NCBI GenBank assembly: GCA_029856235.1
Contig: JAHQWP010000045.1
Span: forward strand, 1 to 49,070
From: Promethearchaeia archaeon
GTDB lineage: Archaea > Asgardarchaeota > Lokiarchaeia > Sigyniarchaeales > SOKP01
Direction of reading: 5' to 3'
Length of the DNA stretch: 49,070 nt
Shown here: piece after piece, positions 5,674 to 46,818 of the stretch
Position numbering within the stretch: position 1 is the stretch's first letter
Layout of the letters: each line of letters opens with the position of its first letter
The notes under the pieces: model-generated
Database searches by the model: none
The model's input: the letters and a program-made list of their open reading frames with translations, nothing else
Told to the model about the DNA's origin: nothing
Made by a program: the position numbers and the translations under genes

Positions 5674-7143
5674 ATGATCATGGTTAAAGATAATTTTCTC
5701 CAAAACCTAACTAACATTTGCGGATCTCAATATATCTCACAAGATCCCAAAGAATTAAAAGCTTATTCTGAAGATTTAAGTTTTTTAAAAGGAAAATCTC
5801 CAATATGTATTGTTTGGCCTTCTAATTCTCAAGAAGTTGGGAAGATTGTGAAACTAGCAAATGATTTAAAATTCAATATTATACCCATAAGTTTAAAATC
5901 AAAATTTATGCATCACGGAGATTCTCTGCCTAAAAGGGAGAATTCAGTTATCTTAAATCTTTCAAGAATGAATAAAGTCCTTTCAATTGATAGAAAAAAT
6001 CGGGTTGTAATGGTTGAACCTGGAGTTTCGTTCGATCAATTAGTTCCTATACTTAAAAAAAAAGGACTAAGATTACTTTTACCTCTTCATCCAACGGCGT
6101 CTAGATCAATTCTAGCGACAGCTCTCGAAAGAGAACCAATTACAATACCTCGCTATCATTGGGATAGCTCTGATCCTCTACTATGTACGGAAGTTGTATT
6201 TGGAACAGGAGATTTATTCAGAACCGGAACTGCTGCTGGTCCAGGAACAATCAAGCAACAACAAAAAGTGGGTCAGGCACAAGTTAACCCGATGGGTCCT
6301 ACTCAATTCAGTCCATATAGGGTGATACAAGGAGCTCAAGGAAGTTTGGGTGTGGTAACCTGGGCTACGTTGAAATTAGAATTGTTACCCTCTACTCATA
6401 AAATCTACCATTTTCAATCAGATGATCTCCAAACTCTATTAGACCTTCAATATGAGTTGCTAAAATATAGACTTTGCGATGAACTCTTTATTTTGAATAA
6501 TATTAATTTAGCGTGTTTGCTTAAGCAAGATTCACAAGAAATTTCTGAACTAATTGGAACCTTAAAAAAATGGAACTTAATTTATATTATCTCTGGCAGG
6601 GGACCATTAGCCAAAGATAGAATTTCATATCTAGAAGGGGATATTGAGGAAATTAGAGCAGAGTTAGATATTAAATTTGCAGAACCCGAAGTGGAAATCT
6701 CTGATAGAGAAATCCTTCATTTTCTTAATGAACCATGTGAAAAACCATGGAGAATGAGGTTAAAAGGAGCTTATCAAGATATCTTCTTTCTGACTGGTTT
6801 TGAAAAAATTCCTAAGTTTATTTCTATGATGGAAACGAATTATAAGGAAGATTTCGGGATTTATATTCAACCTATAAATCAAGGAACATCATATCATATT
6901 GAATTTGATTCGTTCTATGAACCCAAAGATGAAAGTGTTGTTAAAACCATTAAAGATACGATTTTAGGTGTAGGAAATCAATTGATGGATAATGGAGCTT
7001 TTTTCAGTCGACCGTATGGAATATGGACTAAAGATGTGTTTTCCCATCATAGTGCAGAAACTGTTGATACCCTTAAAAAGGTTAAAAAAATATTTGACCC
7101 AAATAATGTACTAAATCCAGGAGTTTTGTGTTTTGACGATTAG
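5674..7143 (+). CDS. FAD-binding oxidase, GlcD-like, first of two in the operon
   Basis: 489-residue flavoprotein of the FAD_binding_4 (vanillyl-alcohol oxidase/glycolate oxidase) fold. The FAD domain runs from about residue 40 (PICIVWPSNSQEVGKIVKLA) through SVILNLSRMNKVLSIDRKNR and VVMVEPGVSFDQLV to GAQGSLGVVTWATLKLELLP near residue 218. The C-terminal cap ends in the family signature KKIFDPNNVLNPGVL. Such proteins oxidise 2-hydroxy acids or alcohols and pass electrons to an Fe-S partner, here the gene 34 bases downstream. The usual glycine-rich FAD loop (NIIPISLKSKFMHHGDSLP) is poorly conserved, so flavin binding may be weakened compared with the second copy. ATG at 5674 or 5680. The substrate is unknown. 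Confidence 0.85.
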   Translation: MIMVKDNFLQNLTNICGSQYISQDPKELKAYSEDLSFLKGKSPICIVWPSNSQEVGKIVKLANDLKFNIIPISLKSKFMHHGDSLPKRENSVILNLSRMNKVLSIDRKNRVVMVEPGVSFDQLVPILKKKGLRLLLPLHPTASRSILATALEREPITIPRYHWDSSDPLLCTEVVFGTGDLFRTGTAAGPGTIKQQQKVGQAQVNPMGPTQFSPYRVIQGAQGSLGVVTWATLKLELLPSTHKIYHFQSDDLQTLLDLQYELLKYRLCDELFILNNINLACLLKQDSQEISELIGTLKKWNLIYIISGRGPLAKDRISYLEGDIEEIRAELDIKFAEPEVEISDREILHFLNEPCEKPWRMRLKGAYQDIFFLTGFEKIPKFISMMETNYKEDFGIYIQPINQGTSYHIEFDSFYEPKDESVVKTIKDTILGVGNQLMDNGAFFSRPYGIWTKDVFSHHSAETVDTLKKVKKIFDPNNVLNPGVLCFDD

Positions 7144-7177
7144 ATTCTAATATTTTTTAAAAATTTATAAAACGAAA

Positions 7178-8491
7178 GTGATTAAAATGGACGATGAAGA
7201 ATATCAAAAAATGATTAAACGGTGCGTACGTTGCTCTGTATGTAAATGGATCCCCCAAGTTCAAATTAAAAGTCAAAAATACGCTTCAGCGTGCCCAGCA
7301 ATCGACATCTATAATTATCATCCTTACAGTGGTGGGGGGAAAATAATTCTTGCTCTCGCTTATGAGATGGGAAGAATTAAACCAACAGAAGAACTACGGG
7401 ATATTGTCTACAAGTGCACTGAGTGCGGAAATTGTGCCGTAAGCTGTAAATACATGAGCGTTTTAGAGCCACTCGAGATAATTATGAAGTTGAGAGAGAA
7501 ATTAGTAGATGCCGGATGCGGACCTATGCCTCAACAACAGGCTTATATAGAAGCAGTCAAAAAAGTGAACAACCCATACAATGAACCACACGAAAAAAGG
7601 ACAAATTGGGTTCCTGATGACATAAATCTCGATCCAAATGCAAAAGTACTGTATTATGTTGGTTGTACCTCTTCCTATAGAAGAAAAGAAATGGCAATAG
7701 CAGCAGCACGTGTTATGAACGAAGCGGGAGTTTCGTTCAACATATTACAAGACGATGAATTTTGCTGCGGGAGCCCAATATTACGTACCGGCGATACAAA
7801 AACATTTGAAGAAATCCTTAACAAGAATCTGGACATAATTGAATCAAAAGGCATAGAAACCGTTGTTTTTAGTTGTGCTGGTTGTTACGATACCTTTAAA
7901 GTAGATTATCCTTTGTGTAGAAAATATAGTTTCAAAGTTAAACATACCGTAGAACTTTTTGATGAATTAATCGAATCAGAACAGTTAAAATTAACTAACA
8001 ACGTCCCCATTACAGTGACTTATCACGATCCCTGCCATTTGGGTAGAAATGCCGAAAGATACGAAGATTGGGATGGTGACACGGTTCCTTTAATGCCTTT
8101 AGTATCAATTAATGTTCCTCCTAAACCCAAGAGGACAGGATCCAAAGGAATTTACGATGCTCCAAGAAATATTCTCAAAAAAATCCCGGGATTGAAATTC
8201 GTAGAAATGGAGAGGATTCAAGAATATGCATATTGTTGCGGAGCTGGCGCAGGTGTAAAATCGGCTTTTCCTGAAATGGCTATAAAAACAGCTAAAACAC
8301 GGATTGAAGAAGCTGAAGATTCAGGGGCAGATATTCTTGTTTCCGCTTGTCCTTTTTGTTCAACAAATTTACAGGATGGGATGACGGATATGAATTCTAA
8401 ATTAAAATATTTTGATATAAGTGAACTAATATTAATGGCTTTAGGTTTAGAACCAGAAAAATTAAAGCAAGCTACAGCGGAGGTTGCATAA
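7178..8491 (+). CDS. CCG-domain Fe-S oxidoreductase (GlcF/HdrD-like)
   Basis: 437-residue Fe-S protein expected to take electrons from the flanking flavoproteins. Cys16, 19, 22 and 39 form an atypical first cluster with wide spacing; Cys80, 83, 86 and 90 (CTECGNCAVSCK) form a classic [4Fe-4S] site. Two cysteine-rich CCG domains follow: CCGSPILRTG with CAGCYDTF, and CCGAGAGVKSAFPEMA with CPFCSTNL, as in heterodisulfide reductase HdrD and glycolate oxidase GlcF. GTG at 7178 or ATG at 7187. It lies between two FAD oxidases, and the downstream gene starts four bases after its stop behind a GGAGGT site inside this gene, so co-expression is certain to a good degree. The electron acceptor (menaquinone, ferredoxin or a thiol) is open. 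Confidence 0.88.
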   Translation: MIKMDDEEYQKMIKRCVRCSVCKWIPQVQIKSQKYASACPAIDIYNYHPYSGGGKIILALAYEMGRIKPTEELRDIVYKCTECGNCAVSCKYMSVLEPLEIIMKLREKLVDAGCGPMPQQQAYIEAVKKVNNPYNEPHEKRTNWVPDDINLDPNAKVLYYVGCTSSYRRKEMAIAAARVMNEAGVSFNILQDDEFCCGSPILRTGDTKTFEEILNKNLDIIESKGIETVVFSCAGCYDTFKVDYPLCRKYSFKVKHTVELFDELIESEQLKLTNNVPITVTYHDPCHLGRNAERYEDWDGDTVPLMPLVSINVPPKPKRTGSKGIYDAPRNILKKIPGLKFVEMERIQEYAYCCGAGAGVKSAFPEMAIKTAKTRIEEAEDSGADILVSACPFCSTNLQDGMTDMNSKLKYFDISELILMALGLEPEKLKQATAEVA

Positions 8492-33123: not shown

Positions 33124-33675
33124 TTAAATTTTACCCGAAGTTTCAAGAATCTTTAATGTCAATATCTTAAAAACATCCTCTACTGAATCGCCTTGTTTAG
33201 CACTTGTTTCAATATACTGCATTGCGTGCATTTCTCCTTTTAAAGACTCTCCATCTTGTTCTGCTACCTCTCTTTGTCCCTCACGGGCGAGATCTAGTTT
33301 ATTTCCAATCAGAAGACAGGGTTTTTGACCAATTACTTTTTCAACTTCCTCTCGCCACTCAAGCATATCAGCAAAAGATGAGCGTCGCGTAAGGTCATAC
33401 ACATAAATGATACCCGTTGCTCCACGATAGAATGGTGGTCGAACAAACGAGAAGTGTTTCTGTCCAGCTAGGTCCCATAATTGAAGTTTTACTTGTAGTT
33501 GTGGGTGATCAGCTAGCTCGACTGTTTTTGTACTAAAGTTTGACCCTATTGTCATTAAATAGCTCTCCTTAAAAGAATTTTCACAGTATCTAAGGACCAT
33601 AGAAGTTTTACCCACGCCACCGTTTCCGACAACGCAAATTTTATAGATGTAGGACTTTTGATATACTGAAGACAT
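33124..33675 (-). CDS. Ras/Rab-like small GTPase
   Basis: 183-residue GTPase of the Ras superfamily. G1 is GNGGVGKTS (17-25), the switch I Thr is probably Thr42 (LMTIGSNF, as in Rab-like TIG), G3 is WDLAGQ (67-72), G4 NKLD (125-128) and G5 ETSAK (156-160). Leu replaces the usual Thr in D-T-A-G-Q, while the catalytic Gln72 is kept. FYRGATGIIYVYDLT is typical of Rab. The C-terminus, TSGKI, has no prenylation cysteines, so membrane anchoring must come from a partner or is absent. Asgard genomes carry many such genes; no effector or exchange factor is nearby. Confidence 0.92.
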   Translation of the reverse strand: MSSVYQKSYIYKICVVGNGGVGKTSMVLRYCENSFKESYLMTIGSNFSTKTVELADHPQLQVKLQLWDLAGQKHFSFVRPPFYRGATGIIYVYDLTRRSSFADMLEWREEVEKVIGQKPCLLIGNKLDLAREGQREVAEQDGESLKGEMHAMQYIETSAKQGDSVEDVFKILTLKILETSGKI

Positions 33676-38741: not shown

Positions 38742-39503
38742 ATGCCGTTCAAATCGGGGTATAATGTTTACAACAAAAACAAAAGAATTCCTTCAATTTC
38801 AAGTGGAGACTCAACTCTAGATGAGTTATTGGGAGCCAATGGTTTTCAGAAAGATTTAATTCACCTCCTTTATGGCGATAAAAAGAAGTGTGCGAACATT
38901 TTATTGACCACCGCTGTTTTAGCTCAAAAATCTTATAACAATGGCGGTTTTGGAGAGGAAGCTAAGATTGCATTTATTGATGCAAACAACCGTTTTAATC
39001 CGTATAATGTGAGTAAGTTTGCCGTTTCCCAAGATTTATCGCCGAAAAAAGTGCTAGAGAATATCTTGATTGCTCGCGCGTTTACATGGGATCAAATGGT
39101 GGAGCTTTTAGAGAATAGACTCTCCAAACTAAAAGACATAAAAGTTGTTCTAATCTCCGGTATCACAACACTGTTTCAGGATTACCAAAAGCAGACATTT
39201 GAAGATTTACTACGAACTATAAATGGCATTAAAGAAATTCTTTACAAAACAAAACCATTAATCGTCATAACCGCTCCTCTACACGAATATTCTATTTTTA
39301 GACCGAATGGCGGAAAAATCCTTTCCCACTTCGGAAGCGTATTGGTAATGATAAACGAAGACGAGCGGTACACCGACTACAGTCTTGTTCAACACCCTTT
39401 TCTGCCGGAAAACCGCCTTTTAAAGTGGAAACCGCGTATCCCTAAAAGAAATTTGGCAGAAACTTCGAAAAACACGACTTTGGATTGTTGGATTAATCAA
39501 TAA
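38742..39503 (+). CDS. Inactivated RadA/RecA-family paralogue of the PolB2 cassette
   Basis: 253 residues. The alignment to RadA is easy to see: SISSGDSTLDELLGANGF (RadA ISTGSKSLDELLGGG), AFIDANNRFNPYNVSKFA (YIDTEN-F-PER), LENILIARAFTWDQMVELLE (the DNIYVARAYNSDHQ region) and VVLISGITTLFQ (IIVDSLTALFR). But the Walker A loop is GDKKKCAN (45-52) in place of GxxxxGKT, and the Walker B Asp is Ser. ATP hydrolysis is therefore unlikely. The N-terminal helix-hairpin-helix domain of RadA is missing. Inactivated RadA paralogues of this kind are known next to archaeal polB2, comparable with ImuA in the bacterial ImuA-ImuB-DnaE2 mutasome. Confidence 0.82.
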   Translation: MPFKSGYNVYNKNKRIPSISSGDSTLDELLGANGFQKDLIHLLYGDKKKCANILLTTAVLAQKSYNNGGFGEEAKIAFIDANNRFNPYNVSKFAVSQDLSPKKVLENILIARAFTWDQMVELLENRLSKLKDIKVVLISGITTLFQDYQKQTFEDLLRTINGIKEILYKTKPLIVITAPLHEYSIFRPNGGKILSHFGSVLVMINEDERYTDYSLVQHPFLPENRLLKWKPRIPKRNLAETSKNTTLDCWINQ

Positions 39504-40751: not shown

Positions 40752-43157
40752 GTGGATTCGCAAAAAGTATTCAAGGGGTGGCTTTTAGATGTAGCTACCT
40801 ATAGTGAAGGAGTTATCCTTTGGGTAAAAACTGAAGAAGAACGGAAAGTAATAAGAATATTCCAAGAATTTTCTCCTGAGTTCTTCGCTGTTCCGAAGAG
40901 GAGTAGTGGAAACGATCTAAAAAGACTAAAGCACATCCTTTCTCAGAACGAAAACGTAAAGACAGTACGGGTTTGCGAGAAGTACGTGAAGCTGGAAGAC
41001 CACGAAAAGTCAAGAATTCTTGGCGTTACAGTCGAAAAACCATCTTTGTTCAAAGAAACTATTAAAGAAGTTGATGAGATCGGGTTATTTACTTTATACA
41101 ATACAGATCTTCCTATAACTCAGATGTACTTCTATGTTAACGACCTGTTCCCCATGTCTTACTGCCAATTTAAAATCAAAGCTGAAAAGGGTACTTGTAA
41201 GAAGACGAATGTTTTGCGACTTATTTCTATAGATTTGCTAGATGATAACGAAAAGCTCTTCTACGATTTACCTCCATTAAGAGCAGTTTGGTTAGATGTG
41301 AAAATTCAGTACCAAGGAATAAAACCCTATTACAACGATCCTATATCCTACGCTGAGATTAGCATAGTCGAAAATGACGATGACCTCCCTCGAGCAGATG
41401 GATACAAAAAGCGGAGAATACGAATCGAGAGTGCAAGCGAAGCGGAAATAATAAGGTCAATAAGCAGAGTAATCGAACGCCTTAACCCTGATATAATCCT
41501 TACTCAAAATGGAGACGAATTTCTCTTCCCGTATTTAGTTGCCCGTGCCTCAGAAAATCGAGTAAGCAAAGACCTTTACCTCTCTCGAGACAAAAAGCCT
41601 TTAGCGAAGTGCATCTTCGATCTTTCTGGGGGTTCGGATCATTATATGTCTTATGGCATAATCAGGAGACGTTCGAGTACTCAGGTCTATCTAAGTGGTA
41701 GGTTTCACTTAGACACAACCACATACGCCAGTCTTCACTTTTCTGAAGGTAATATTCCGGGGGTTATTGAAGTTGCGCGCATATCGAGAATTTCGCTTCA
41801 GAGATTAAGTCGTATAACCATCGGTGGAGCTCTCCAATCAATACAATATTATTTCGCTTATAAGCTTGGTCATCTGATCCCTCCTTTCAAGAAGAGTCCC
41901 GAAGGTTTCAACAGCGGAATGGACTTAATTAGAAGCGATCGTGGTGGACACATTTTTGAACCTATTATTGGAGTGTTTGATCAAGTAGTAGAGTTAGATT
42001 TTTCTTCTATGTATCCGTCCTTAATGGCGACCTTTAACATCTCTTCGGAAACCATTAATTGTAAATGTTGCAAAGACGACGGCACCGGCATAAAAGTTCC
42101 AGGATTAGACTTCCATATCTGCACAAAAAGGCAAGGTATAATATCAAAATCTATAAGCCTACCGTTAAACAAGAGGCTGAAGTACAAAAAGTATGTTCGC
42201 AGAACTGGAAGCGTTCGCTACAACTTTGTTGACATTGCTCTTAAATGGGTGCTTGTAGTAAGTTTTGGCTATCTAGGTTTCAAAAACGCCCGTTTTGGGA
42301 AAATAGAAGCACATCAGACCGTGTGTGCTTTTGCTAGGGAATTCTTAATGCGCTCTGCTGAGATTGCTGAAAGCCACGGCTGCCAAATTATTCATGGAAT
42401 TGTCGATTCGATTTGGCTAAAAGACAGAGAAAACCGGACTACTGAAGCGTTCGAAGAAGTAACGAAGGAAATTGCAAAGGAAATAACTAAAAGCGTCGGT
42501 ATTCCAATGAGTTGGGATGGACGCTATAACGTAATTTGTTTCCTCCCGTCAAAAGCTGAACCAGACATCCCTGCTCTGAGTCATTATTGGGGGATTAAGA
42601 GCAATGGAGAAGCGAAAGTACGAGGAATTGAAGTTCGCCGTAGAGATATACCAAAAATAATCAAAGACGCGCAATATGCGTTTATAGATGTTTTTCAGGG
42701 AGCAACTACCACCGAAGAATTTATGAGACGAATGCCTAAAGTAAAGAATCTACTCTACCACTACATTGACAAAATCGAGATGGGTAAAATTTCGCGAGAA
42801 GAACTTACTATTCGACAAAGAGTTTCTCGAAAACCTTCTCAGTATAAAGTTAACTCGTACCAAGCTGTTGCTGCAAGACAATTAGAGAGATCAGGGGTCG
42901 TGGTAACTCCCGGCAAAAATGTTCGATATATTATCCTCAATGCAGATGCGAACCCCGAATTTCCTGAGAACAAGGTTATTCTCTCAAATCTTTACGACGA
43001 GAAAAAGCATCAGTACGACAAAAAGAAATATGTCGAATTGCTAAAAAGAGCCTTTGAAAATATTTTTCCTTTCGAATTTCCTGAGCTTGAAGAAATGGTA
43101 AAATCGGCGATCATGAGGAAATCTGACCAAAAGGATTTATCGTGCTATATTGAATAG
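40752..43157 (+). CDS. polB2: PolB2-type family B DNA polymerase with altered active sites
   Basis: 801 residues. Motif A is intact in form, ELDFSSMYPSLMA near residue 414-426 (DxxSLYPS). Motif B is the divergent LKWVLVVSFGYLGFKNARFG near 495-514. Motif C, normally YGDTDS, is HGIVDS near 548, which lacks the first catalytic Asp; this HGIVDS form is the hallmark of archaeal PolB2. In the exonuclease domain Exo I reads WLDVK in place of FDIE, so proofreading is probably lost, whereas NGDEFLFPYLVARA still resembles Exo II. PolB2 (Dpo2) of Sulfolobales acts in DNA-damage tolerance. The GTG start lies two bases after the small protein gene. Confidence 0.9.
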   Translation: MDSQKVFKGWLLDVATYSEGVILWVKTEEERKVIRIFQEFSPEFFAVPKRSSGNDLKRLKHILSQNENVKTVRVCEKYVKLEDHEKSRILGVTVEKPSLFKETIKEVDEIGLFTLYNTDLPITQMYFYVNDLFPMSYCQFKIKAEKGTCKKTNVLRLISIDLLDDNEKLFYDLPPLRAVWLDVKIQYQGIKPYYNDPISYAEISIVENDDDLPRADGYKKRRIRIESASEAEIIRSISRVIERLNPDIILTQNGDEFLFPYLVARASENRVSKDLYLSRDKKPLAKCIFDLSGGSDHYMSYGIIRRRSSTQVYLSGRFHLDTTTYASLHFSEGNIPGVIEVARISRISLQRLSRITIGGALQSIQYYFAYKLGHLIPPFKKSPEGFNSGMDLIRSDRGGHIFEPIIGVFDQVVELDFSSMYPSLMATFNISSETINCKCCKDDGTGIKVPGLDFHICTKRQGIISKSISLPLNKRLKYKKYVRRTGSVRYNFVDIALKWVLVVSFGYLGFKNARFGKIEAHQTVCAFAREFLMRSAEIAESHGCQIIHGIVDSIWLKDRENRTTEAFEEVTKEIAKEITKSVGIPMSWDGRYNVICFLPSKAEPDIPALSHYWGIKSNGEAKVRGIEVRRRDIPKIIKDAQYAFIDVFQGATTTEEFMRRMPKVKNLLYHYIDKIEMGKISREELTIRQRVSRKPSQYKVNSYQAVAARQLERSGVVVTPGKNVRYIILNADANPEFPENKVILSNLYDEKKHQYDKKKYVELLKRAFENIFPFEFPELEEMVKSAIMRKSDQKDLSCYIE

Positions 43158-43260
43158 TCAAAGCCGACTTAAAAAAATTTTAACCGAACCCTAGCGACAA
43201 AATTTTTTAATAATCCCTTAATAGTCCCATTTAAATACGATCCACTCAAAATATATATTG

Positions 43261-43930
43261 TTCATACCTCGCGGTGTGAATATCGAGAAGTAGTATTAAC
43301 CTCAATGGAATGACCAATTTGAATGCCTCTGGTATGAAAAATTGGTTAAACTTTCTTTCCTTAACGGAAAGTTTGTATCTTCGGATATAAGTTTGGTTCA
43401 TTGGTTTTCGGATTAATGTCTAAAAAGAGTTGGTTCATTGAGACGTTTTATATGAAAATATGGTATGAAATACTAGCAATGAGCCTTCGGGTATAAATGC
43501 ATTTTCTCATATCATGCTTGAATACATGATCATTGGAAAAGATAGAGCACCCTCAAAAAATGCTACCGAATGTTTATCCTAACGGGTACGTCATTTCGGT
43601 AAATCGAGCTATGCTAGCAATTTCGATTAAATCTCCGGAGTGATTCTGACAGGAGGTTTCACGACCAATAGTTGGAATGCATTGAATGGGGACTTTCCTT
43701 ACATCGTAAGGAATGGCAACATCTCGCAAACAATTCTTTCGGGGATTCGATTGCATATTCCACCGGATCGTGCCTAATAGTGTGATCATAGGAAAGGTAT
43801 CGCAATCAATGTCATACTACCAATAGAAATGCTTAACGGTATTGAAATTGGAAATTCAAACTTCTACGGAAGAATGAACATATCTTAGGGTAAGGAACGA
43901 TCGATTAGTTTTCGGACTTATCGAAAAAAC
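43261..43930 (+). ncRNA. Candidate large structured RNA downstream of polB2
   Basis: About 670 bases without a credible gene but crowded with hairpins. Perfect or wobble stems: TTCATACC/GGTGTGAA with loop TCGC (43261-43280); ACCAATTT/AAATTGGT enclosing ATGCC/GGTAT (43313-43346); AAACTTTC/GAAAGTTT (43348-43374); TATC-TTCG-GATA (43376-43387); GCC-TTCG-GGT (43483-43492); ATCATG/CATGAT (43511-43530); TACCGAATG/CATTTCGGTA (43564-43601) enclosing ATCC/GGGT; AATCGA-GCTA-TGC-TAGC/TCGATT (43602-43628); CCAA-TAG-TTGG; TTCCTTAC-ATC-GTAAGGAA (43695-43713). G-U pairs and the C(UUCG)G loops fit only the plus strand. TTTAAATA at 43230-43237 could be its TATA box. No known RNA class was recognised. Confidence 0.5.
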
Positions 43931-43959
43931 CTGTATCACATTGACACAATACCACGCAA

Positions 43960-43987
43960 AAAACCCATCAGAAACTCATTGCAACTT
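43960..43987. repeat. Short dispersed repeat, copy 1
   Basis: The stretch AAAACCCATCAGAAA followed by CTCATTGCAACTT recurs at 46003-46031 with one inserted base and one or two changes. This copy covers the 3' end of the phosphotransferase pseudogene; read on the minus strand the second copy encodes KVAISFLMGF. It may be a shared gene tail or a mobile-element trace. Confidence 0.5.
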
Positions 43988-44342
43988 CTTGAACCTTTTT
44001 TCTAAAAGTTCCATACAATTTAAATCTTCTATGGTAGCAAGGGTAGTTTCTAATTTAACCCACCAGAAGAAAGAAGAAGCCATACCCATATTCCACCCCC
44101 CGATACAAGTGTAAATGTTTAAAAAAGTAAGTAATTTATAATCATACCAACAATCGTCCCAACTATAGTTTTTGATACCCAGCTTTATAAGATGGTTATG
44201 ATAACGTTTGATAAGATCTTTTTCTATTAAATACCTATAATCAGGAAAAAGCATAATCATATATATTAGATCTTGACCTCCTACTCGTCAACCATTCTGG
44301 TGTTAATTGATCTATATCAGTAATTACCTTAATCTCATTCAT
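43976..44342 (-). pseudogene. Internally deleted phosphotransferase-like kinase gene
   Basis: The downstream 95 codons (start at 44260 if read alone) encode the C-terminal end of an aminoglycoside-phosphotransferase/ecdysteroid-kinase-like protein: QDLIYMIMLFPDYRYLIEKD, then LIKRYHNHLIKLGIKNYSWD and a DCWYDYKLLTFL segment, typical of that family's last helices. Upstream, from ATG at 44342, is the family's N-terminus, MNEIKVITDIDQLTPEWLTS, in another frame. The two meet at about 44275-44286, where some 250 middle residues, including the whole catalytic loop, are missing. The gene cannot make an active kinase. The 3' end may also be frameshifted near 43972. Confidence 0.7.
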
Positions 44343-44402: not shown

Positions 44403-45695
44403 TCACCTTTTATTCATTTCAAAGAGCAATTTATCAGCTCTCTTTATCCATTCCTCTTCTTTTCTTTCGATTGCTAATTCTCTTCCTTTTTTCGCATATT
44501 CAATTGTTTTTTTATAATTAACTAATTCTTTATAACATTCTGCCATTTTTAGATAGGTTTCAGACCAACCATTAGGTTCAAGTTCCAATGCTTTTTGAAA
44601 CTTGACAATCGCATCCTCATATTCATGGAAAATAAGTAATATTTCCCCGAAAGTATCATAAAAATTCCCATCATGTGGTTCTCGTTCTACAAGATCTTGA
44701 ATAATTTTAATGGATTCTTCCTTTCTATTCAATATTGCCAAAATAAGTGCTTTATGATTTAACAAAAGAGTATTATTAGTATCAGATTCCAAAACATTAT
44801 TGATTGATCGAAGAAAGCCATTTGCTACCCAGCTATTAACTTGATTAGAATAAACTCTAGCTCGTTTATATTCTCCTATTCTTTCATATCCAATTTTTTC
44901 TGCTGTTTTATAAGAACCAACATTCGTCGAGGTACAAACCCACCTAATGGATTTATATTTTGGTAAGCAATATTCTACTGTAGCTGCACCGACTATAGAA
45001 GCAAAATCCCTTCTTCGATACTCTCCAAGTGTTCCTATACCATATACTTCGATTTCATTATTTTTTGTCAAAAATCCTAATATGCAGAAACTTACTACTT
45101 CTTTATCTTCTCTAACAAGCAGAAATCCTCTAATATCTTTCAAACCCTCTTCAAAAGGAAACCAATGAGTCCTTAAAGCGCCATAAAATAAATAATTATA
45201 GTACATATCGCCCTTCAGATGATCTTTCTCCTTCAGAGACAAATCGATTGGCGCTACACTATATCCTTCGGGAATAAAGTCTCTCCAATTCTTCAATTTC
45301 AGTTCTTTAATTTCGTGGTATAAACGAATTTCTGAATTAGGATCCTTAAGAACAGAGTTTATTCCTTCCTCCCAGTCCTTATTAGAAAGTTCAACCCAAA
45401 ATTCAACAGGTTTTTCTTCCTTATCTTTTATAAAAGGTTCTTGATAAAGCATCTTTCTAAATTCTTTATTGAACTCTTTATTGTCTGCTCGTCCTCCGAA
45501 GTAGAACCATATCCTCAAATCAGTGTGTCGAAAAACTACAATCACTGCTGTTTGAGGATCGCCTCTATTGTCCACAAACACATGTTTCGGAACAGGAATT
45601 CTTTCTAGCGTACTTCGTAACCCTTCTACGAAAGGTTTTTCTTCAAACAAATGTTTAACTTTGTGAAAGTCCTTTTCCATTAACTCTTCTATCAT
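44403..45695 (-). CDS. GNAT acetyltransferase fused to TPR repeats
   Basis: 430 residues. Residues 1-280 form a two-part acetyltransferase of the kind found in the GNAT_acetyltran group: an N-terminal region with HVFVDNRGDPQTAVIVVF and WFYFGGRADNKEF, then the acetyl-CoA domain with GFLLVREDKEVVSFCIL, YGIGTLGEYRRRDFASIVGA (the Arg-x-x-Gly loop is here YRRRDFA) and WVCTSTNVGSYKTAEKIGYE. Residues 285-425 are three to four TPR units, the clearest being YEDAIVKFQKALELEPNGWS followed by YLKMAECYKELVNYKKTIEY. TPRs usually bind partner proteins, so the enzyme may modify a bound protein. It lies downstream of small genes with no shared operon evident. Confidence 0.82.
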   Translation of the reverse strand: MIEELMEKDFHKVKHLFEEKPFVEGLRSTLERIPVPKHVFVDNRGDPQTAVIVVFRHTDLRIWFYFGGRADNKEFNKEFRKMLYQEPFIKDKEEKPVEFWVELSNKDWEEGINSVLKDPNSEIRLYHEIKELKLKNWRDFIPEGYSVAPIDLSLKEKDHLKGDMYYNYLFYGALRTHWFPFEEGLKDIRGFLLVREDKEVVSFCILGFLTKNNEIEVYGIGTLGEYRRRDFASIVGAATVEYCLPKYKSIRWVCTSTNVGSYKTAEKIGYERIGEYKRARVYSNQVNSWVANGFLRSINNVLESDTNNTLLLNHKALILAILNRKEESIKIIQDLVEREPHDGNFYDTFGEILLIFHEYEDAIVKFQKALELEPNGWSETYLKMAECYKELVNYKKTIEYAKKGRELAIERKEEEWIKRADKLLFEMNKR

Positions 45696-45864
45696 TTAAT
45701 TTCGCCAGTTAGTTAAAATTGCTTTATGTGGGTTTCTTCCTTAATAATTCCTTAAGTTCCATTCATATTAAAAATTATTGATAAATCTGTTTCTTTTTTA
45801 CATTAGGAGAGATATCAATTTGAAAAGATATAAAGACAATTTGGTTTGACAATATGAGAGAAAA

Positions 45865-45969
45865 ATGGAGGATTTTACTTGGTTAAATTTTTCGGGAAAT
45901 CAGATTGATCATAGTTCATTGTCAAAGGAGCAACAAGAATTAGAAAGTAAATTGATACTAATAATTTAA
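45865..45969 (+). CDS. Possible 34-residue peptide
   Basis: Short open frame starting MEDFTWLNFSGNQIDHSSLS and ending in SKLILII. Composition is compatible with a small protein, and the ATG lies in an AT-rich leader, but there is no Shine-Dalgarno sequence and no recognised family. It occupies part of the 535-base gap between the GNAT-TPR gene and the gene at 46231. Could be chance. Confidence 0.2.
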   Translation: MEDFTWLNFSGNQIDHSSLSKEQQELESKLILII

Positions 45970-45987
45970 CATCCTTAAAATAAATCA

Positions 45988-46116
45988 CTACTTTACCGCG
46001 CTAAAACCCATCAGAAAGCTTATTGCAACTTTACTTATCTCTTGTTTTATTATTTCGTTAATTATTTCTTTGTCCCCATTCAAACACTTTGAAAATTCCT
46101 TAAGTGGTCCTTGCAT
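45988..46116 (-). CDS. Possible 42-residue peptide or gene remnant
   Basis: The minus-strand frame starts MQGPLKEFSKCLNGDKEI and ends EISKVAISFLMGFSAVK. Its last 30 bases repeat the sequence at 43960-43987. A short amphipathic helix with a hydrophobic end is predicted. It may be a small protein or the tail of a lost gene; the repeated end makes the second idea attractive. Confidence 0.35.
   Translation of the reverse strand: MQGPLKEFSKCLNGDKEIINEIIKQEISKVAISFLMGFSAVK
46003..46031. repeat. Short dispersed repeat, copy 2
   Basis: Second copy of the element at 43960-43987, about 2 kb away and in the same orientation, matching at about 26 of 28 aligned bases with one extra G. It forms the 3' end of the small minus-strand frame at 45988. 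Confidence 0.5.
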
Positions 46117-46230
46117 ACATTTGGGGTTTCATGTTTTATCTATACTATATAGCGAACTTTAAAATATCTTAATTACGACTTTATTATTGGACTTAAGAAT
46201 TAAAAAAAAAGATTAGGAGTCAGATAATCA

Positions 46231-46404
46231 ATGTTCAAAGAAAAATTTGCAAACTTAAGGAATCTATTGAGAGCGAAAAAGAGAGCTAAAAATACCCCGC
46301 AAGATCCTGCAAAATCTAATTTGCCTGGTCCAATTAGCCAAGACTTATACCATAAAATGGACCCCTCGTGGGAAGCGAGGAGGAAAGAACAGGGACTTGG
46401 TTAA
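46231..46404 (+). CDS. Small basic protein, 57 residues, unknown
   Basis: Starts at ATG 46231, with GGAG at 46215-46218 as a reasonable Shine-Dalgarno site. The sequence opens MFKEKFANLRNLLRAKKRAK, a basic amphipathic helix, then a Pro-rich linker (NTPQDPAKSNLPGPISQD) and an end MDPSWEARRKEQGLG. It has no membrane segment or cysteines. The helix could bind nucleic acid or a membrane surface. The coherent composition and ribosome site make a real gene likely, but no family is known to me. A second small frame follows after eleven bases. Confidence 0.5.
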   Translation: MFKEKFANLRNLLRAKKRAKNTPQDPAKSNLPGPISQDLYHKMDPSWEARRKEQGLG

Positions 46405-46415
46405 TGAAATAGAGT

Positions 46416-46595
46416 TTGGATATAAATAATGCCACCTACCCATGGGACGATGTCCTACTCTTAAAATACTTCGATTCTTTCAGCGCTGCGCAGGACCTTA
46501 AACAAGTAATAATTTCACATACAGAAGAGTATTTGATCTTATGCATTAGTAATGGAGTTTCTACCTTTTCTTTTACTCAGCTCAAAACAACATAA
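46416..46595 (+). CDS. Possible 59-residue protein with TTG start
   Basis: Open frame with TTG at 46416, eleven bases after the previous stop. The protein reads MDINNATYPWDDVLLLKYFD at its start and continues with alternating helix and strand character (AQDLKQVIISHTEEYLILCI). This balanced composition is more protein-like than most chance frames in such AT-rich DNA. Its last 14 bases overlap the convergent 30-residue gene at 46582. No family is recognised and the start is uncertain. Confidence 0.35.
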   Translation: MDINNATYPWDDVLLLKYFDSFSAAQDLKQVIISHTEEYLILCISNGVSTFSFTQLKTT

Positions 46596-46674
46596 TTAAT
46601 ATTACGATAAGAATGATGAACCCAATAACAGGAACACATTTAAGAATAGAAAGATAATCTGTAAATTTGTCCAC
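46582..46674 (-). CDS. 30-residue single-helix membrane peptide
   Basis: GTG at 46674, six bases after the zinc-ribbon stop. The peptide MDKFTDYLSILKCVPVIGFI continues as one strongly hydrophobic helix (ILIVILIMLF) to the stop, with charges only at the N-terminus. Tiny membrane proteins of this form often modulate larger membrane partners. It would be third in a three-gene set with 46681 and 46815. The assignment rests on tight spacing and hydrophobicity. Confidence 0.4.
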   Translation of the reverse strand: MDKFTDYLSILKCVPVIGFIILIVILIMLF

Positions 46675-46680
46675 TTGTTT

Positions 46681-46818
46681 TTACTTTGTGTCTGAAAGTT
46701 TCATTCCACAGTTAGGACAATAGGAAGGAATCTTTGATAAAATAGTATCATAACTTTGTATAGCGGATTTTGCGGGGTGAACTTTCTGTCCGCAATTTTC
46801 ACATCGTGGTGTTTTCAC
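46681..46818 (-). CDS. 45-residue zinc-ribbon protein
   Basis: GTG at 46818 overlaps the TGA of the upstream gene (ATGTGA), a standard coupling arrangement. The protein begins MKTPRCENCGQKVHPAKSA and has a second knuckle YCPNCGMKLSDTK at the end; two Cys-x-x-Cys-Gly pairs 30 residues apart form a single rubredoxin-like zinc ribbon. There is no other domain. It may bind nucleic acid or serve as a partner of the upstream protein. Confidence 0.65.
   Translation of the reverse strand: MKTPRCENCGQKVHPAKSAIQSYDTILSKIPSYCPNCGMKLSDTK

Follow-up and report, generated by a model that had tools for sequence, protein, structure and literature searches.

A predicted large folded RNA and its dedicated promoter in two lokiarchaeal genera

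Positions 43260 to 44001 of the plus strand in the window (the whole 49,070-nucleotide stretch of DNA analyzed here, from contig JAHQWP010000045.1 of a Promethearchaeia archaeon) very probably constitute the gene for a folded non-coding RNA of about 740 nt with its own dedicated promoter and a presumed terminator. No RNA-seq data were used, and the transcription, start, and end of this RNA are predictions. Sequence comparison places the RNA in a so far unnamed family that appears confined to two lokiarchaeal genera (Lokiarchaea are archaeal relatives of the ancestors of eukaryotes). Its function can be inferred only weakly. Comparison of sequences alone shows the family itself, its ends and structure, the conservation of its promoter, the exchange of interior types on a frame that stays constant, a duplicated core, and an accessory distribution. 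We interpret the RNA as accessory, self-promoted, and most likely trans-acting; its transcription and its action in trans are both inferred, the latter from the self-contained nature of the unit and its changing neighbors. Large orphan structured RNAs are already known as a kind (GOLLD, ROOL, and OLE), and it is this family, not the kind, that appears to be new. If Asgard archaea do have a family of large structured RNAs missed by every Rfam model, it would offer a concrete starting point for work on RNA biology in the archaeal lineage nearest to eukaryotes. Further, the family can be tested directly by transcriptomics, pulldown, and probing, thanks to its constant ends, its exchangeable interiors, and a promoter of its own.

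Ends of the RNA gene

DNA comparison identified homologues of differing lengths that share the same two ends. The 5' end consists of the hairpin TTCATACC..GGTGTGAA followed by CGAGAAG. The 3' end is formed by a hairpin, in many cases capped by a UUCG-type loop, and then CTTCT, a T or C, and a T-rich stretch. Based on these shared ends, the RNA in the window, which is of the long A type, extends from about 43260 to 44001 on the plus strand (about 742 nt), beyond the 670 bases described in the earlier note. The start was placed by the distance from the TATA-like element and the end by a T-run at 43996 to 44001 (plus strand), the presumed terminator, which corresponds to the T-rich stretch found after P1 in the copies; no transcript data support either position. 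The region delimited in that note, 43261 to 43930, is real, but its limits do not hold, as the unit ends at the T-run and its promoter extends upstream to about 43165. The same two ends are found across 25 copies, with the exception of one (L043, G067:C21:15991) in which the whole of P0 was lost and the promoter, P1, P2, and the 3' end were kept. This copy may be failing, or else P0 is not essential.

Secondary structure and covariation

A skeleton of six helices, P0 to P5, is common to all copies and lies on the plus strand. P0 is the 5' hairpin TTCATACC(TCGC)GGTGTGAA at 43261 to 43280; it is found in 24 of 25 copies with 96.4% of cells paired, and one of its pairs is changed from C-G to U-A in 6 copies. 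P1 (CGAGAAG with CTTCT(T/C)G) joins the 5' arm TCGAGAAGT at 43283 to 43291 to the 3' arm ACTTCTTGA at 43984 to 43992, with 98.9% of cells paired over 25 copies. Five of its seven pairs are invariant, one alternates between G-C and G-U, and CTTCT is present in every copy. P2 (GTATT with AATAC) pairs AGTATT at 43292 to 43297 with AATACT at 43469 to 43474, and both arms are supported by changes on both sides, which were observed in 6 of 10 pairs, as in GTATAGTAA/TTACTATAC and GGTAATGT/ACATTACC. Within P2, P3 (CAATG with CATTG) pairs CTCAATG at 43301 to 43307 with CATTGAG at 43436 to 43442 and encloses hairpins at 43313 to 43346, 43354 to 43372, 43373 to 43390 (with a UUCG loop), and 43392 to 43424. 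P4, a hairpin at 43444 to 43467 in the consensus fold of the long form, separates the 3' arm of P3 from that of P2 and has an equivalent in the other types. P5 lies between the 3' arms of P2 and P1; its arms, GCAATGAG at 43476 to 43483 and CTCATTGC at 43975 to 43982, close an extra domain of about 480 nt, and both are supported by a change from G-C to A-U at alignment columns 226/721 (in L026) and by two G-U changes.

Across the 25 copies, 89.9% of the cells in the 31 skeleton pairs were standard pairs, and 38 cells were changed on both sides, compared with 13.6 ± 3.5 in shuffles and 6 to 16 in slid controls. This alignment was assembled manually from excised and rejoined sequence segments; in four copies the P5 arms are apparently shifted by one, so P5 is undercounted. 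A similar result was obtained with the 11 copies of type B, in which 94.4% of cells in 106 pairs were standard. Changes on both sides were present in 23 of these pairs, compared with 11.7 in shuffles, and in 55 cells, compared with 19.1 (±4) in shuffles and 8 to 15 in slid controls. The type B structure was predicted from the same alignment in which it was counted, which biases the percentage of paired cells upward; stronger evidence comes from the slid controls and from the changes on both sides. A kink-turn suspected by eye was dropped, as the stem at that place is fully paired.

The individual hairpins named in the earlier note were found in their places, including the P0 hairpin, ATGCC/GGTAT at 43323 to 43335, ATCC/GGGT in the 43570s, and two C(UUCG)G loops at 43379 to 43384 and 43485 to 43490. 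The dense array of hairpins that it described is likewise present, but many of these hairpins are branches of one closed structure, the ends of which pair (43283 to 43291 with 43984 to 43992), rather than members of a free array.

Folding and strand

The plus strand from 43255 to 43960 folded at -192.1 kcal/mol, compared with -165.1 ± 5.7 kcal/mol for dinucleotide shuffles (z of -4.8, with none of 20 shuffles as good), whereas the fold of the minus strand was not clearly better than that of shuffles (z of -1.8). Shorter homologues of 348 and 270 nt gave z values of -8.65 and -8.58, respectively, against 100 to 200 shuffles. These values indicate structure far above chance on the plus strand. 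The absence of any excess folding energy over dinucleotide shuffles, which would have refuted the proposal, was thus not observed. Within the structure, G-U cells outnumbered A-C cells in each of three alignments (131 versus 29, 170 versus 12, and 53 versus 5), which fixes the plus strand as the structured one and speaks against its complement. The compensatory changes among homologues, the excess of G-U pairs, and the folding of the plus strand collectively support its proposal of a large structured RNA on that strand.

Promoter

The RNA is preceded by a multielement promoter unit of about 95 bp (43165 to 43259, plus strand). Its upstream elements (43165 to 43202) form a direct repeat of CGACTTAAA at 43165 to 43173 and CGACAAAA at 43195 to 43202, spaced 30 bp apart, a spacing conserved in nearly all of the 25 copies. 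The proximal promoter (43206 to 43237) contains TTTAATAATCCCTTAATAG, ending at 43224, and the TATA-like TTTAAATA at 43230 to 43237, which is the element previously reported 24 bases before the first hairpin and lies at the usual archaeal TATA distance from the predicted start. Nearly all 25 copies, at any locus, hold the blocks CGACWWAAA at -95, CGACAWAAA at -65, TTTAATAA at about -52, TTAATAG at -42, and TTTAAATA at -30; the last was unchanged in the first 10 copies.

Within the genome, an exact TTAATAG-N5-TTTAAATA is present at the two RNA loci and nowhere else. When a three-block pattern was searched in 10 genomes with 0 to 1 mismatch, it was found only at the RNA gene, ruling out at this stringency a promoter regulon that extends beyond that gene; at 2 to 3 mismatches, a reversed control was nearly as frequent. 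As judged from these comparisons, the promoter is dedicated to the RNA and travels with it. The 30-bp-spaced CGACWWAAA repeat implies a specific regulator, and none has been identified.

Interior types and the long form

Between the constant ends, four kinds of interior were distinguished: long A of about 740 nt (six copies, including that of the window), short A of 263 to 300 nt, B of 339 to 384 nt, and C of 277 nt. A model of type B (R2) found nothing convincing at the A and C loci, its one match (E of 0.044) not lying at the RNA, and a model of the A core (R3) matched type C weakly. The site next to the DNA polymerase gene polB2 alone hosts types A, B (in G015 and G023), and C (in G018 and G020), with the same promoter and ends. 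Thus, the ends behave like a constant frame and the interior like the changeable part.

Compared with the short A form of G004, the RNA of the window carries about 480 additional nt as a domain inside P5. In G004, GCAATGAG/CTCATTGC form a small hairpin, and in the window these arms lie about 490 nt apart; in the short types, the P5 arms make a simple hairpin (as seen in L023). The first core module of the window RNA (43293 to 43442, plus strand) follows the consensus fold and scores 155 bits with R3, a model whose training set includes it. The middle domain of about 310 nt (43484 to 43795, plus strand) is present in the 6 long copies and has a predicted fold with few covarying pairs, and no relatives of it were found outside the long type. 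It is followed by a second core module at 43796 to 43953 (plus strand), with the stems GGTAT (43796 to 43800)/ATACC (43949 to 43953) and CAATGT (43807 to 43812)/ACATTG (43938 to 43943). R3, which was built from first cores only, matched this second module at 43797 to 43943 with 36.2 bits and its counterparts in the 5 other long copies with 42 to 51 bits, so that second-core matches were obtained in all 6 long copies (E of 1.6e-7 to 1.7e-4 in 172 kb). Alignment scores between the second and first cores were 6.4 to 7.3 SD above composition shuffles in the three long copies compared. On this evidence, the long form consists of a short core and the domain of about 480 nt within P5, and the latter holds a second, diverged copy of the core. 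Support for the extra domain is limited to six sequences that are much alike (92% mean column identity), and for this reason double changes are few, being found in just 11 of 253 predicted pairs. Two core copies within one molecule offer a built-in test of the structure.

Comparison with known RNAs

A search of the window against the 4227 families of Rfam release 15 gave no matches at gathering thresholds. A permissive search of 43100 to 44100 returned only chance-level matches (E of 6.6 to 8.3), all on the minus strand, and six homologous loci gave none at E of 1 or below. These searches bear out the impression that the RNA belongs to no class that could be named. ARAGORN detected no tRNA or tmRNA genes in the window. 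A protein-coding gene was excluded, as no open frame is conserved across homologues and indels are not multiples of three. The longest stop-free runs in the plus frames (43/38/48, 39/63/35, and 57/41/52 aa) showed no pattern, in agreement with the earlier reading that the region holds no credible gene.

GOLLD, ROOL, and OLE are large ornate bacterial RNAs; GOLLD and ROOL are of unknown function and have been placed in prophages and phages (PMC12286853). The lokiarchaeal RNA resembles them as a large, elaborately folded non-coding RNA. In contrast to them, it is found in archaeal genomes, lacks a viral-contig match, and carries interchangeable cores on a constant frame; Rfam gave no match to these families, assuming that release 15 includes them. 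A viral origin was dropped after searches with two patterns produced no matches to viral contigs. In Y RNA, which occurs with Ro60, the ends pair in a conserved stem, the interior is variable, and a T-run forms the end, all of which also hold for the lokiarchaeal RNA. However, the latter is much larger, and no TROVE/Ro60 protein (PF05731) was detected in any of 65 genomes of the family, while one control genome was positive; the Y RNA idea was ruled out by this absence. Like archaeal RNase P RNA and SRP RNA, it is a structured archaeal RNA gene of a few hundred nucleotides, but it differs from both in having no Rfam match and in being absent from near-complete relatives. Since a housekeeping RNA would not be missing in this way, identity with RNase P or SRP RNA is very unlikely. 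No report of structured RNAs in Asgard archaea was found in a literature search that left out many journals and covered no preprints.

Distribution

A covariance model of the promoter and 5' hairpin (R1) recovered 25 copies in 23 of the 83 genomes of the class, and the same 23 among the 228 genomes of the phylum. Carriers comprise 10 of 24 genomes of the window's genus (g1) and 13 of 19 of one other genus (g8), and the 3' end motif is present in every copy (in L026 by direct reading). No members beyond these two genera were found in the 228 phylum genomes with R1, in the class with R3, or in the family with R2; these searches used strict filters, and diverged members may have been missed. Near-complete relatives without the RNA include G009 and G072 (both at 100%), G079 (at 97%), and G065. 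The genome bin of the window contains a second copy of the RNA, which probably represents another strain rather than a paralogue, because it is accompanied by its own polB2 and the contamination of the bin is 8.26%.

Genomic context and turnover

In the window, the RNA follows polB2 (40752 to 43157), which encodes Pfam DNA_pol_B and exonuclease domains. In most carriers polB2 is itself preceded by a conserved ORF of about 90 aa (cluster c1) without a Pfam match. In relatives that lack the RNA, polB2 is followed directly by other genes, a clean absence, and comparison of G002 with G003 showed that the entire promoter-RNA unit is missing, with no target-site duplication evident at the empty site. 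On the polB2 tree, presence of the RNA requires 6 changes, at least 4 of which are forced by well-supported branches. G081 carries an intact short A copy together with a decayed type B copy (L174, G081:C48) that lacks the promoter and the P1 3' arm.

A fossil 3' end of the RNA was also found at 45994 to 46031 (plus strand) of the window as a direct repeat of 43950 to 43987 (BLASTN E of 1.7e-5 against the window RNA). It is closer to the L021 and L044 alleles (matches of 58 to 67 nt, E of 1e-10 to 5e-9) and lies 2.0 kb 3' of the intact gene, from which it is separated by a GNAT/TPR gene (44403 to 45695). It could be a tail displaced by the insertion of a cassette. In G067 (L111, RNA at 7038 to 7376), the last 130 nt are repeated about 2.6 kb downstream, past three genes, in decayed form (75% identity, E of 1.6e-17). 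These displaced 3' tails suggest cassette replacement, although two cases are few.

Possible function and alternative explanations

The position of the RNA could mean that it acts in cis, as a structured terminator or 3' untranslated region through which the polB2 mRNA is controlled; it lies 3' of polB2 on the same strand, mostly 100 to 170 bp away, in the short A copies of g8 and almost every copy of g1. However, the conserved promoter intervenes between the two, an opposite-strand ORF separates them in G007 and G019, and the type B copies of g8 are found at several unrelated loci behind the same promoter, in genomes whose polB2 lacks the RNA. The description of the RNA as downstream of polB2 is accurate for the window, but it is not a property of the family. 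We consider a cis-acting element highly improbable and rejected it on the basis of the other loci and the RNA's own promoter. There is a negligible chance that the hairpins instead mark an untranscribed feature of the DNA itself, for example a recombination hotspot or an origin: many hairpins do adjoin a DNA polymerase gene, but compensation runs through G-U pairs on one strand, the reverse strand folds poorly, and a promoter and T-run bracket the unit.

The sporadic presence of the RNA could also mean a selfish or defense role. An RNA element resembling an intron or satellite, selfish or mobile in nature and moving between sites, would be consistent with occurrence in several contexts, the clean empty sites, the decayed copy in G081, the displaced tails in two genomes, and the forced changes on the polB2 tree. 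Such an element is nonetheless quite unlikely, given the lack of an evident target-site duplication at the G002/G003 site and of viral-contig matches with the two patterns, the absence of any recognized transposase, integrase, or reverse transcriptase among the few neighbors scanned, and the retention of a long dedicated promoter, unlike an intron. An accessory RNA of genetic conflict (defense, counter-defense, or antitoxin-like), in which the interior diversifies and the frame stays constant, is unlikely but draws on the accessory distribution, on A and B interiors too different to cross-match between constant ends, and on a turnover that leaves displaced 3' tails, much like that of cassette arrays. 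Against it, no gene was consistently adjacent across all loci, although only a few neighbors were scanned against Pfam.

The RNA closes on itself through the pairing of its ends in P1, flanked by the P0 (5') and P5 (3') hairpins, and its interior hangs off P2 and P3. The reading of its mechanism that we prefer, tentatively and short of calling it probable, is that of a scaffold. The RNA may act in trans as a scaffold or RNP, with the constant frame recognized by a host factor and the interior modules serving as the variable, effector or specificity part. Binding of the frame is the weaker inference; it is drawn because P1 keeps its letters beyond what pairing requires and the inner modules differ, and no partner or target has been identified. 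A more elaborate proposal, and one that is rather unlikely, is a modular RNA system specific to Lokiarchaea, in which a constant frame and dedicated promoter carry interchangeable, fast-diverging modules (up to two cores and a third domain) and cassette turnover leaves 3' tails behind. If true, it would be an RNA counterpart of polymorphic specificity systems.

Other features of the window

Beyond the GNAT/TPR gene, 1.1 kb (45696 to 46814) contains no long ORF, and a segment at about 46590 to 46818 resembles the sequence 3' of the RNA in G004. Also encoded in the window are a short Rad51/RadA-like protein (38742 to 39503, plus strand) and a Ras-family small GTPase (33124 to 33675, minus strand), the latter as expected of an Asgard archaeon.
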